Source: Vulcanimicrobiota bacterium | GTDB lineage: Bacteria > Vulcanimicrobiota > Vulcanimicrobiia > Eremiobacterales > Eremiobacteraceae | Assembly: GCA_019235715.1 (NCBI GenBank) | Contig: JAFAKE010000097.1 | Location: 1 to 60,660, forward strand | Direction of reading: 5' to 3' | Length of the DNA: 60,660 nucleotides | Part shown: positions 1,524 through 5,735 of the stretch, piece after piece | Numbering within the stretch: position 1 is the stretch's first letter | How the letters are laid out: every line of letters starts with the position of its first letter | Notes under the pieces: generated by a model | What the model saw: only the letters and a program-made list of their open reading frames with translations | The model's database searches: none | Told to the model about the DNA's origin: nothing | Program-made: the position numbers and the translations under genes

Positions 1524-2285
1524 GTGGCGCGCATCGACGGACGGGCGGACGACCAAGCACGGCCTTTCAACGTCACGCCGAATTACTTGCGCTTCGCCGA
1601 GGGTTCCGCGTTGATCGAGATCGGCAACACGCGGGTGCTATGCGCGGCGACGGTCGAAGACAAAGTGCCGCCGTTTCTCAAAGGCCAAGGGACCGGCTGG
1701 GTCACCGCCGAGTACGCGCTGCTGCCGCGCTCGACGTCGGAGCGCACGCAGCGCGAGTCGGCCAAAGGACGGGTCGGCGGACGCACGCATGAGATCCAGC
1801 GCACGATCGGCCGCAGTCTGCGTTCGGTCATCGATCTGCGCGCGCTGGGCGAACGCGCGATCCTGCTCGACTGCGACGTGCTTGAAGCGGATGGGGGAAC
1901 GCGCACGGCCGCGATCACCGGCGCGTTCATCGCGCTCGTGCTCGCGCTCGCCGGCCTGCGCAAGGAGAACAAGCTGCGCGGGTGGCCGCTGACGGATTGG
2001 CTCGCAGCAACCTCGGTGGGCATCGTCGACGCGCGACCGATGCTCGATTTGTGCTATGACGAGGATTCGCGCGCGCAAGTCGATATGAACGTCGCGATGA
2101 CCGGCGATGGCCGTTTCGTCGAAGTGCAAGGCACCGGAGAGGGCATGCCGTTCGCCCGCGCTGAGCTCGAGCGGCTGCTCGCGCTGGCCGGACGCGGTGT
2201 GGCGGCACTGATCGCCTCTCAGCACGCAGCACTTGCGCCGTTCGACATCCCGGCCTTCGGCAAGCCGGCCAAGGCCGCGTCGTGA
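1524..2285 (+). CDS. rph: Ribonuclease PH
   Basis: Phosphorolytic 3'-5' exoribonuclease that trims tRNA 3' ends. The 253-residue protein has the usual family length. The family pattern is clear throughout: an N-terminal RxDGR motif ([10 protein letters not shown]), [15 protein letters not shown], the arginine-rich [15 protein letters not shown] segment, [19 protein letters not shown] with the phosphate-site residues, and the C-terminal GTGEGMPF motif. GTG start 4 bases after glmS stop. The end overlaps the next gene by GTGA, implying coupled translation in an rph-orf-mlaEFD operon. No disrupted residues seen. Confidence 0.96.
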
Positions 2286-2605
2286 GCGATCTCGATGGCC
2301 TGCTTGCGCTGATCGACGAGTTCCATATCACAGACCGTTCGCTGCGCTCAGCGCGCGAGCGCGTGCGCGTGGAGGGAAGCAGCGCCGCGGTCGAGGCCCT
2401 CCTGCGCGCCGCGGCCAAGTACTTCGGCGACATGGCTGCGGAGTCGGAGCACCACCTCGCACAGCTCGATCGCAGACTCGACGACCTGTATCAGCGGCAG
2501 TACAATCTGCAGGCCGAGCGCAGCGTCGCCGTGCGCCGGCGCGACGGTGCCTTGCGCGTGCTGGACGCGCTGCAGGACGCCTCTTCACGGGAGCAGCCGC
2601 GGTGA
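2282..2605 (+). CDS. Small hypothetical coiled-coil protein
   Basis: A 107-residue charged protein, mostly helical, with heptad-like runs in its second half ([20 protein letters not shown]). No signal peptide or membrane segment, so probably cytosolic. It starts at a GTG overlapping the rph stop (GTGA), and its own stop overlaps the GTG of mlaE in the same way. It is therefore embedded in the operon by translational coupling on both sides. Family not recognised. Position suggests, but does not show, a link to the Mla transporter. That the frame is a gene is supported by the two tight junctions. Confidence 0.7.
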
Positions 2606-3369
2606 TCCAACGCGCGGCGCCTAATCCGTTTAGCCGTTTTTTCGGCTACGCGGGCGGCGTCACGATAATGTTGGGCGATGCATTCCGCTACATGTTCACC
2701 CTGCAAGTGCGCCTGACCGACGTGCTGCGCCAAGCGTATTTCCTCGGTGTCGAATCGTGGCCCATCATCGTGCTCACGTCGCTGTTCACGGGCGCGGTCA
2801 TCTCGCTTGAGACGGCCAAGGCCGCCGTACAGAACGGGTTTACGGAATACGTCGGCAGCAGCGTCGCGTATGGGACCTTCCGCGAACTGGGACCGCTGCT
2901 CACCGGCATCGTGTTCGCCGGCCGCGCGGGCGCTGCGATCGCGGCATCGCTCGGCGCGATGAAGGTGACCGAGCAGATCGAGGCGTTCCAATCGATGGGC
3001 GTGAGCCCCGTCAAAGTGCTGGTCACGCCGCGCGTACTGGCGTGCATCGTCACCGTGCCCATGCTCACCGTGTTCGCCGACATCATCGGCATCTCGGCCG
3101 GTTACTACATGGCGCATTGGGTCGCCGGCATCCCGCAGTACACGTATTTCCATTCCGTGCAGCAGGGCACCGAGCCGAGCGATTTTTACAACGGTTTGAT
3201 CAAGGCCGCGGTCTTCGGCATGGTCGTGTCGATCATCGCCTGCTACGAAGGTTTCCGCACCGAGGGCGGTGCGGACGGCGTCGGACGCTCGACCACGAAT
3301 GCGGTGGTCACCGCGGTCATCTTGATCTTCGCGTTCAACTTCGTGCTCTCGTACGTGCTATTCAGATGA
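2602..3369 (+). CDS. mlaE: MlaE-family lipid ABC transporter permease
   Basis: Inner-membrane permease of an Mla/MCE phospholipid transporter. The frame is open upstream to 2233, but that part only shadows the preceding genes. The GTG at 2602 overlaps the previous stop (GTGA) and gives the family's usual length (255 residues). Family features include the amphipathic N-terminus, a hydrophobic segment with the FTGAVISLETA motif, GTFRELGPLLTGIVFAGR, the EQIEAFQSMGVSPVKVLVTPR cytosolic loop, and C-terminal membrane helices. Partner ATPase MlaF starts 13 bases downstream and MlaD follows. Confidence 0.95.
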   Translation: MIQRAAPNPFSRFFGYAGGVTIMLGDAFRYMFTLQVRLTDVLRQAYFLGVESWPIIVLTSLFTGAVISLETAKAAVQNGFTEYVGSSVAYGTFRELGPLLTGIVFAGRAGAAIAASLGAMKVTEQIEAFQSMGVSPVKVLVTPRVLACIVTVPMLTVFADIIGISAGYYMAHWVAGIPQYTYFHSVQQGTEPSDFYNGLIKAAVFGMVVSIIACYEGFRTEGGADGVGRSTTNAVVTAVILIFAFNFVLSYVLFR

Positions 3370-3382
3370 CGCGGCGGCCGCG

Positions 3383-4177
3383 ATGATCCTGCAAGAAGAA
3401 CGCGCCGGGCCGCCACGCCCGGAAGAAGACGTCGCGATCCGGCTCGACCGCATCGGCTTGCGCTATGAAGAGAAGATCGTGCTTTCCGATTGCTCGGTGG
3501 ACTGCAAGCGCGGGCACGTCACCGGCATCATCGGGTTGTCCGGGGCCGGCAAGTCGACCATCTTGCGCGTGATCAACGGTCTGCGTCATCCCGATGCGGG
3601 TGCGGTGTACATCAACGGCGATGACATCACCGGCTGGGACGAGCACGAGCTCATCGAGATGCGCAAGAAGATGGGCTTCGCCTTTCAATACTCTGCGCTT
3701 TTCGACTCCATGACGATCGCGGAGAACGTCGCGTACCCGTTGTGGGAGCACACGACGATGACCAGGGCACAGATCGACAAGCGCGTGTCCGACACGCTCG
3801 AAGCGTTGGGGTTGTCAGAAGTGGAGGGCAGCCTTCCCGGCGAGCTCTCCGGCGGCATGCAAAAACGGGCGGGGTTCGCGCGCGCCATCGTGAATGACCC
3901 GGAAATCATCCTGTTCGACGAACCGACGTCAGGACTGGATCCAATCATGACGCACATCATCGTGACGACGATCAAGGACATCCAATCGCGCCTGAAGGCG
4001 ACGTCGGTCGTCGTCTCGCACGATCTGCGTTCGATCTACGCGCTGTCCGATACGGTCGCGATGCTGTTCGAGGGCACGATCATCGAATCGGGGACCGTCG
4101 CCGAAATCCGGCGCTCGCCGAATCCCATCGTGCAGCAGTTCTTGCAAGGGAGCGAGCTTGGCCCGATCCCGCTCTAG
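3383..4177 (+). CDS. mlaF: MlaF-family lipid ABC transporter ATPase
   Basis: Cytosolic ATPase that powers the MlaE permease. The 264 residues contain the Walker A motif GLSGAGKST (about residues 51-59), an LSGGMQKR signature, the Walker B/catalytic segment IILFDEPTSGLDP and the switch histidine in VVSHD. LSGGMQKR rather than LSGGQ is typical of MCE-system ATPases. ATG start 13 bases after mlaE. The end overlaps mlaD by 20 bases. No separate MlaB or MlaC gene is in the operon, so this is a minimal MlaEFD set. Confidence 0.96.
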   Translation: MILQEERAGPPRPEEDVAIRLDRIGLRYEEKIVLSDCSVDCKRGHVTGIIGLSGAGKSTILRVINGLRHPDAGAVYINGDDITGWDEHELIEMRKKMGFAFQYSALFDSMTIAENVAYPLWEHTTMTRAQIDKRVSDTLEALGLSEVEGSLPGELSGGMQKRAGFARAIVNDPEIILFDEPTSGLDPIMTHIIVTTIKDIQSRLKATSVVVSHDLRSIYALSDTVAMLFEGTIIESGTVAEIRRSPNPIVQQFLQGSELGPIPL

Positions 4178-5735
4178 CCAGCGCGGCGCCAGCCCGACCT
4201 CGCAACAGGTGCGCGTCGGCATCTTCACGCTGCTCGCGCTCGTGGCGGCATTCGTCGTCTGGCTGTACATCAGCGACATCGGCGCGCGCGCGCGCGGCTA
4301 TCCGATCGCCGTGCACTTCAAAGATGTCGGCGCGCTGCAGGAGGGGGCGTCCGTCGTCATCTCGGGCGTCGCTGTCGGCGACGTCACGAAGATCGACCTG
4401 CTGCCCGATCAGACCGTGCTTGCCGAAGCGGTCATCAGCAAGGGCACGACCGTCTATCGCGAGTCGACGTTCACAGTGGAGAGCACGCTCACCGGGCAAT
4501 CCAGCCTTGCCATCAAGCCGCCGCACGATCTCGCCCACGCGACCGTGCTGGCGCACGGCATTCCGGCCGATCCAAACGACGCGCCGTGGGGCGTCTTGCC
4601 GCCGACGATCACCGATCTCGTCAGCGAAAGCCAAGCGCAGCTCAAGTCGCTTGAGAAAACCGTCGCCATCATCAACGTCGAAATGCCGCGCCTTGCGCGC
4701 CGTTTCGACAGCGTCGCGTCGCATACCGACCACCTCATCACCCGTGCCGATACGAACTTCACCGAATTGTCCGAATCGCTCAAAGTGACGGTCGCAAATC
4801 TCAACCGCGTCGTCGCGCTGAGCGGCAACAACATCATCTCGCTCACCGGGAACTTGAACGGCCTTGTCGCCAACAATTCGGAGCGCGTGCAGCAGCTGGT
4901 CGACGCGCTCTCGGACACGGCAAAGAACCTGAACACGACGATGGCGAATTTCGCGGCGCTCACCGGCGACCCGACGATCCGGCAGAGCCTGGTGCAGACG
5001 GCGGTCAACTTCAAAGACGCGAGCGAAAAGCTCAAGGTGGCCGCGACCGAGCTGCAGTCGTTGACGGGCGATCCCAACGTCCAGGCGCAGCTGCGCGGCA
5101 CCATCTCCAACCTCAACGACGTGACGGCCAAGGCCAACGATCTGCTCGGCAATTTTTCGACCGCCACCGGTCCGCTGCCGACGCCGGTGGCGCCGCTGCC
5201 CGAAGTGACACCGCTGCAAGGCGCAACCCCGGCGCCCGGTGCCGTGCCGCTCGCGACGCCGTTCGGAAGCGTGCCGCCCGCGGCGGCGCCGGCGCCGCAT
5301 GCCTCGCCGCATCAGAACGTGCTTGCGAACTTAAAGCTGGTCGAGCCCGACGTGCGCCTGTATTGGGATAGCAGATTCAACGGCGGCCCCACATCCGATC
5401 TGAACTTCACGTTCCTGCCGCGGGCGCCGGGCAATTTCACGCTCGGTGCCAATTCGCTCGGCCACGATACGACCTACAACGTGCTGCTGAACCGGCGCGT
5501 TGCGCCCGGATTCACGTTGTCGGCGGGCGTGCTGTACTCGAACCTGGGTGTCAAAGCGGTCTATCTGCCGAGTTTCCTCGGCATCGATGCGCGCCTGTAC
5601 AATTCGAACAATCCGACGTTGGATCTGTACGGCGACGTCAAGCTGGCCAAGCAGATCATGCTGTTCTACGGTGAGAAAAACGTCTTTGGGCCGAACACCT
5701 TGACGCCGACGTTCGGCATGCAGGCGAACTTCTAG
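4158..5735 (+). CDS. mlaD: MlaD-like MCE protein with long helical region and C-terminal beta-barrel-like domain
   Basis: Lipid-transport MCE protein of 525 residues, far longer than E. coli MlaD (about 183). Order: N-terminal membrane anchor (about residues 18-40), one MCE domain (about 45-125, with FKDVGALQEGASVVISGV), a long helical segment rich in Asn and Leu (about 150-335), a Pro/Ala linker (about 335-385), and a final stretch of about 137 residues with alternating beta strands ending in phenylalanine (TPTFGMQANF), as in outer-membrane barrels. TTG start with GGGAG five bases upstream. Last gene of the operon, followed by a terminator. The barrel assignment rests on strand pattern and the C-terminal Phe. 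Confidence 0.9.
   Translation: MARSRSSQRGASPTSQQVRVGIFTLLALVAAFVVWLYISDIGARARGYPIAVHFKDVGALQEGASVVISGVAVGDVTKIDLLPDQTVLAEAVISKGTTVYRESTFTVESTLTGQSSLAIKPPHDLAHATVLAHGIPADPNDAPWGVLPPTITDLVSESQAQLKSLEKTVAIINVEMPRLARRFDSVASHTDHLITRADTNFTELSESLKVTVANLNRVVALSGNNIISLTGNLNGLVANNSERVQQLVDALSDTAKNLNTTMANFAALTGDPTIRQSLVQTAVNFKDASEKLKVAATELQSLTGDPNVQAQLRGTISNLNDVTAKANDLLGNFSTATGPLPTPVAPLPEVTPLQGATPAPGAVPLATPFGSVPPAAAPAPHASPHQNVLANLKLVEPDVRLYWDSRFNGGPTSDLNFTFLPRAPGNFTLGANSLGHDTTYNVLLNRRVAPGFTLSAGVLYSNLGVKAVYLPSFLGIDARLYNSNNPTLDLYGDVKLAKQIMLFYGEKNVFGPNTLTPTFGMQANF

Follow-up and report, generated by a model that had tools for sequence, protein, structure and literature searches.

By what route do lipids traverse the periplasm of diderm bacteria that lack MlaA and MlaC, and does the barrel of MlaD conduct them or only act as an anchor? 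The question is raised by a long mlaD gene in the window analysed here (the whole stretch of DNA, 60,660 nucleotides). A long MlaD with a C-terminal barrel has been described from Veillonella parvula (Grasekamp et al., 2023; PMC10665443). That work inferred barrels for 103 sequences, found them to be widespread among diderm Terrabacteria and proposed MlaEFD to be ancestral; the ten-strand barrel of Veillonella was assigned to the outer membrane by fractionation and described as too narrow for a phospholipid (PMC10665443). A sequence-only reading of the present locus had referred to this design as known and proposed as ancestral, which matches Grasekamp et al. (PMC10665443), and had suggested the same architecture for the protein encoded here. 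The relevant features, with their coordinates in the window, are as follows.

2282..2605, + strand: small conserved gene, 107 aa, coiled-coil-like as judged by eye (open reading frame, conservation)
2602..3369, + strand: mlaE, permease, starting at GTG 2602 (PF02405, 259.4 bits; start assigned by reading)
3383..4177, + strand: mlaF, ABC ATPase, overlapping the start of mlaD by 20 bases
4158..5735, + strand: mlaD, long form, 525 aa (open reading frame, PF02470, homologues)
4206..4277, + strand: N-terminal membrane helix of MlaD, residues ~17-40 (hydrophobic segment, judged by eye)
4293..4523, + strand: MCE domain, residues 46-122 (PF02470)
4602..5156, + strand: long amphipathic helical region, residues ~149-333 (100-degree periodicity; helix in a low-confidence model)
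5157..5330, + strand: Pro/Ala-rich linker, residues 334-391 (sequence composition)
5331..5732, + strand: C-terminal ten-strand domain, residues 392-525, a putative outer-membrane barrel (alignment, coevolution, distribution)
5709..5732, + strand: beta-signal-like last strand, residues 518-525 (TFGMQANF; motif from PMC10945584)

The mlaD reading frame (4158-5735, stop included) begins with TTG and encodes 525 residues. Pfam family MlaD (PF02470) matches residues 46-122 with 46.2 bits at a cut-off of 25.1, while the scores with the E. coli-type MlaD family TIGR04430 (46.1 bits, cut-off 135) and the Mce paralogue family TIGR00996 (60.4 bits, cut-off 140.5) stay below their thresholds. In a family profile of 127 aligned relatives and 181 positions, the helical region has its periodicity peak at 100 degrees per residue, with a power of 368 (shuffled controls: 95% point 188, maximum 315). 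Fifteen prolines fall within residues 334-392, and the remaining 134 residues (392-525) show an alternating pattern and end in Phe. The MCE domain, the approximately 185 helical residues (~149-333), the Pro-rich linker and the alternating C-terminal strands ending in Phe had all been read from the letters and are borne out, the last at 134 residues, where about 137 had been given.

PF02470 matches a single protein in the 2.5 Mb genome to which the window belongs, namely the MlaD described here, and the idea of a second MlaD was dropped. Because a homologue is held by 60 of 61 related genomes (this one and 60 relatives, from genus to class), the observation is not due to chance. The sole locus returned by a peptide-pattern scan, from a Candidatus Eremiobacterota assembly, shows 74% identity over residues 4-525.

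The genes are arranged in the order glmS - rph - small gene - mlaE - mlaF - mlaD, with mlaF and mlaE directly upstream of mlaD. The start of mlaE is most likely GTG 2602, within a longer reading frame listed from 2233. The small gene at 2282-2605 shares a four-base overlap (GTGA) both with the stop of rph and with the start of mlaE. This position between rph and mlaE recurs in 30 of 34 loci and in 15 of 16 further regions (one of these from a genome already counted), all exceptions being contig ends; a profile search found it in 110 of the 117 genomes of the class. Searches of 29 members of the small family in Pfam and NCBIfam returned stray matches only (1 or 2 members, E 0.0008 or worse), and its profile had no match in the PDB at E 0.1. 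In four regions (L199-L202) mlaD is located about 2-6 kb away from mlaF while glmS, rph, the small gene, mlaE and mlaF stay together, so that the partner of the small gene could be mlaE or rph. The small protein may be a fourth Mla subunit or a passenger; that it has a role with Mla appears rather doubtful. No STAS (MlaB) match was found by Pfam among the six open reading frames of the cluster (glmS, rph, small gene, mlaE, mlaF, mlaD). The earlier statement that the operon holds only mlaE, mlaF and mlaD is thus right for the recognised mla genes, but it overlooked the conserved small gene.

The absence of mlaA and mlaC from the operon, also noted before, extends to whole genomes: the profiles of MlaA and MlaC each matched 0 of 61, both being positive in the controls E. 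coli and Caulobacter, and the idea that either protein is encoded elsewhere in the genome was dropped for this reason. Other envelope genes are widespread, with LpxC matched in 60 and TamB in all 61 of the same genomes, and a BamA (Omp85 family) match is present in the organism's own genome. No match to the LptD profile was obtained there, but the control of this search was positive in just 2 of 14 genomes, so that little follows from the negative. On a contig outside the window, the LpxC, BamA and TamB matches of this genome are no more than about 9 kb apart, in what looks like an outer-membrane gene cluster. The phylum has been described as diderm from its LPS and BamA genes (PMC6664022), and the cultured member Vulcanimicrobium alpinus as having an outer membrane covered with LPS (PMC9758169).

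The distribution of the C-terminal domain was determined with a domain-only profile, searched against all six reading frames of 149 genomes from the phylum. Of these, 135 gave a match, which in a few cases was incomplete because the contig ended there. Among the 14 remaining genomes, G063 and G144 carry the domain nonetheless, which brings the total to 137 of 149, and the domain has invariant positions; G002 and G142 are truncated by the end of a contig, and the three genomes of family f6 (G066-G068) possess a long MlaD without the domain. The other seven had no MCE match, and in one of them, G003, the contig ends inside mlaF and the operon is lost. In 127 of the 134 loci a single open frame covers the domain together with an MCE domain, and the other seven are cut or broken: in L005 the MCE half stands alone before the contig end, in five loci the contig starts at the barrel half, and in G087 the MCE half is found just upstream of the barrel in a different open frame. 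Occurrence of the domain in non-MCE proteins was dropped as a possibility, there being no instance among the 134 loci. Comparison of the profile of the class with that of the other classes gave a probability of 99.5% (E 2.5e-22, 127 columns), by which the two sets of C-terminal domains are judged homologous.

Two variants were seen in this survey. The barrel-less long MlaD proteins of family f6 (L183, L184 and L185, from G068, G066 and G067, respectively) end in a single strand-like tail, YLTVQFSVVKIF or YLTVQLNVIKLF, recalling the barrels with a single strand per chain that are mentioned in PMC10665443. Genome G074 encodes two barrel-bearing MlaD proteins (L122, L123), and about 3.5 kb of sequence upstream of the L122 gene contain no mlaE or mlaF match.

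AlphaFold models of the full protein (mean pLDDT 36.5) and of the C-terminal domain (31.3), each calculated from a two-sequence alignment with one homologue (L032), were discarded at these values. The barrel profile of the class found no match in the PDB up to E 10. Four matches, all weak (E 1.1-1.4), came from the corresponding profile of the other classes; three were to the outer-membrane protein FapF over 29 positions, and none was used. Pfam yielded one stray match (E 0.092) in one of 57 barrel sequences. A tblastn search of plasmids with the window protein returned nothing at E 0.001, and with two relatives from other classes at E 1 gave weak matches only, all outside the barrel region.

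The aligned C-terminal domains resolve into ten strand-like blocks, and their two-residue alternation lies on average 2.1 SD above that of shuffled sequences, with the helical measure 0.8 below. The C-termini were compared with the consensus of the outer-membrane beta-signal taken from PMC10945584. An aromatic residue terminates 78 of 107 proteins of the class (shuffle mean 11.0, maximum 21) and 24 of 24 from the other classes (mean 2.8, maximum 11). An end of the form G-x-x-h-x-h is found in 82/107 (mean 2.8, maximum 9) and 23/24 (mean 0.6, maximum 3), respectively. The strict signal, which includes a polar residue, is present in 42 of the 107 class proteins (mean 1.0, maximum 5), and in the set of 57 proteins it matched 23 times, with 0.5 expected by shuffling; among the other classes it occurs in just 2 of 24, which equals the shuffle maximum (mean 0.2, maximum 2).

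The order in which the strands pair was examined by coevolution in 133 homologues (effective number 64 to 111, depending on the threshold), and also in the 109 of the class alone, using mean-field and mutual-information versions. Strand limits had been set by eye ahead of the first scoring and were kept unchanged; each pair of strands was scored by its best antiparallel register, with at least five residue pairs per register in the first run and at least six in the final run. Of 5000 random rings, between 0 and 2 equalled the ring order 1-2-...-10-1, whichever of the 13 settings was used. The first and last strands are coupled: the pair 1-10 ranks first of 36 in eight settings and between 1 and 4 of 36 across all 13. 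When mock strands were placed at eight offsets along the helical region of these proteins, the mock closure ranked 13-34 of 36. The ring score of this control nevertheless reached p values down to 0.008, because neighbours in sequence score high; the evidence from the hairpins is therefore soft, whereas that for the closure is clean. No signal was seen for hairpin 6-7, and several settings gave a weak one for hairpin 1-2. The couplings support a closed antiparallel sheet of ten strands, and together with the alternation and the C-terminal signal they support the assignment of the C-terminus as a putative barrel.

A linker was scored where, more than 120 residues past the MCE domain, two prolines fell within a stretch of 14. 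By this rule it is present in 100 of 102 class proteins, with a median length of 42.5 residues, and in 57 aligned proteins the region spans 12-99 residues. In the other classes of the phylum (L100-L123), the proteins share the homologous C-terminal domain, the MCE domain and a helical part of similar length, whereas the linker was flagged in 2 of 25 proteins, clearly in L105 (18 Pro) and doubtfully in L122 (5 Pro), and the profile search for the small gene was negative in all 32 genomes; linker and small gene are both typical of the class studied here. On the sequences compared, the Pro-rich linker is lineage-specific and marks one class. Compensation for a shorter tube was considered and rejected, the median distance being 198 residues from the end of the MCE domain to the linker in the class and 208 from the same point to the barrel in the other classes. 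With a linker length varying between 12 and 99 residues, a sealed conduit from tube to barrel is hard to reconcile, which favours the view that the barrel would be an anchor on a leash.

As a whole, we consider it probable that the locus encodes a Veillonella-like Mla system of three components, operating without the MlaC chaperone. MlaE and MlaF would make up the ABC unit in the inner membrane, and MlaD, presumably as a hexamer, would sit on this unit, its MCE ring and helical tube reaching towards the outer membrane. Each chain would end in a small barrel of ten strands, which BamA would insert into the outer membrane and which would be held on a Pro-rich leash of variable length; there it would most likely anchor and centre the mouth of the tube. 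We infer that MlaD would bridge the two membranes with phospholipid as its cargo, and that the path of the lipid would be the tube and not the barrels, these serving as anchor rather than conduit.

Alternatively, the C-terminal domains might themselves be the lipid path, trimers or one ring of them forming a pore by which the helical tube would be extended across the outer membrane. A fusion of several barrels into a trimeric, TolC-like form has been proposed by Grasekamp et al. (PMC10665443), and the coupling of strands 1 and 10 could equally be between chains. The joint in the class is a Pro-rich stretch of 12-99 residues, though, which is difficult to fit with a sealed path, and we regard such a pore as unlikely. 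In a related arrangement, strand 1 of one chain would pair with strand 10 of another and six sheets, on their flexible Pro-rich leashes, would zip into one composite outer-membrane barrel with a lipid pore opening above the tube. Coevolution yields the same signal for pairing within one chain and between chains and so accommodates the composite barrel, to which we attach scarcely any weight.

The domain could also be a soluble periplasmic beta domain that touches the outer membrane or the peptidoglycan without inserting. The structure models were unusable (pLDDT 31.3 and 36.5) and no recognised outer-membrane family emerged from the PDB and Pfam searches, as would suit this view, but the closed ten-strand order seen by coevolution and the aromatic, beta-signal-like C-termini oppose it, as does the Veillonella domain, which has the same position and strand number and fractionates with the outer membrane (PMC10665443). 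This makes a soluble domain very unlikely. A last possibility is that the barrel was inherited but no longer has a function, the work being done by the tube by itself. This would accord with the three f6 genomes whose long MlaD lacks the domain and with the report that most long MlaD proteins are barrel-less (PMC10665443); retention of the domain with invariant positions in 137 of 149 genomes, however, points to selection, and we hold the remnant to be highly improbable.

The preferred reading, a three-component system with a tethered barrel, can be compared with known ones. With MlaD of Veillonella the protein shares the membrane helix, the MCE domain, the long helical region and a C-terminal domain of ten strands, and with the Veillonella system the presence of mlaE and mlaF beside mlaD and the lack of MlaA and MlaC (PMC10665443). 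The Veillonella-like architecture that had been suggested from the sequence therefore stands in its domain order and, by coevolution, in its ten-strand closure, the operon statement attached to it being incomplete by the small gene. The protein is longer (525 residues, 419 in Veillonella), as is its helical region (~185 residues here, ~150 there), and it has a Pro-rich linker before the putative barrel, while the words 'linker' and 'proline' are absent from the main text of PMC10665443. glmS, rph and the small gene are located upstream here, whereas in Veillonella tolC and tamB lie downstream (PMC10665443). The short MlaD of E. coli shares the MCE domain and the MlaE and MlaF partners, but with 183 residues it has neither the long helix nor the barrel (PMC10665443). 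MCE domains of mycobacterial Mce1 (8fed), E. coli YebT/LetB and, weakly (E 0.0085), PqiB were reached in the PDB by the family profile; for Mce1, a barrel of six strands, one contributed by each chain, is cited in PMC10665443. The best match of this profile was chain I of PDB entry 13hr, a 312-residue 'Mce/MlaD domain-containing protein' (E 5.1e-15), and covers the MCE domain and the helices.

Neither Eremiobacterota nor WPS-2 is named in the main text of PMC10665443. A literature search, from which subscription papers were mostly beyond reach, found no paper on MlaD with a 'proline-rich linker', and for Eremiobacterota with MlaD it returned only a false hit, an author's name. The design itself has already been published, and the protein described here is a further example of it with a lineage-specific linker. 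The combination of MlaE, MlaF and long MlaD is now documented across a phylum with a cultured member (PMC9758169), in which one protein may link both membranes if the predicted barrel inserts. The phylum offers a natural comparison, the same tube and C-terminal domain occurring with and without a flexible linker. The strongly length-variable leash points to an anchor, and through the linker the choice between conducting and anchoring becomes approachable.
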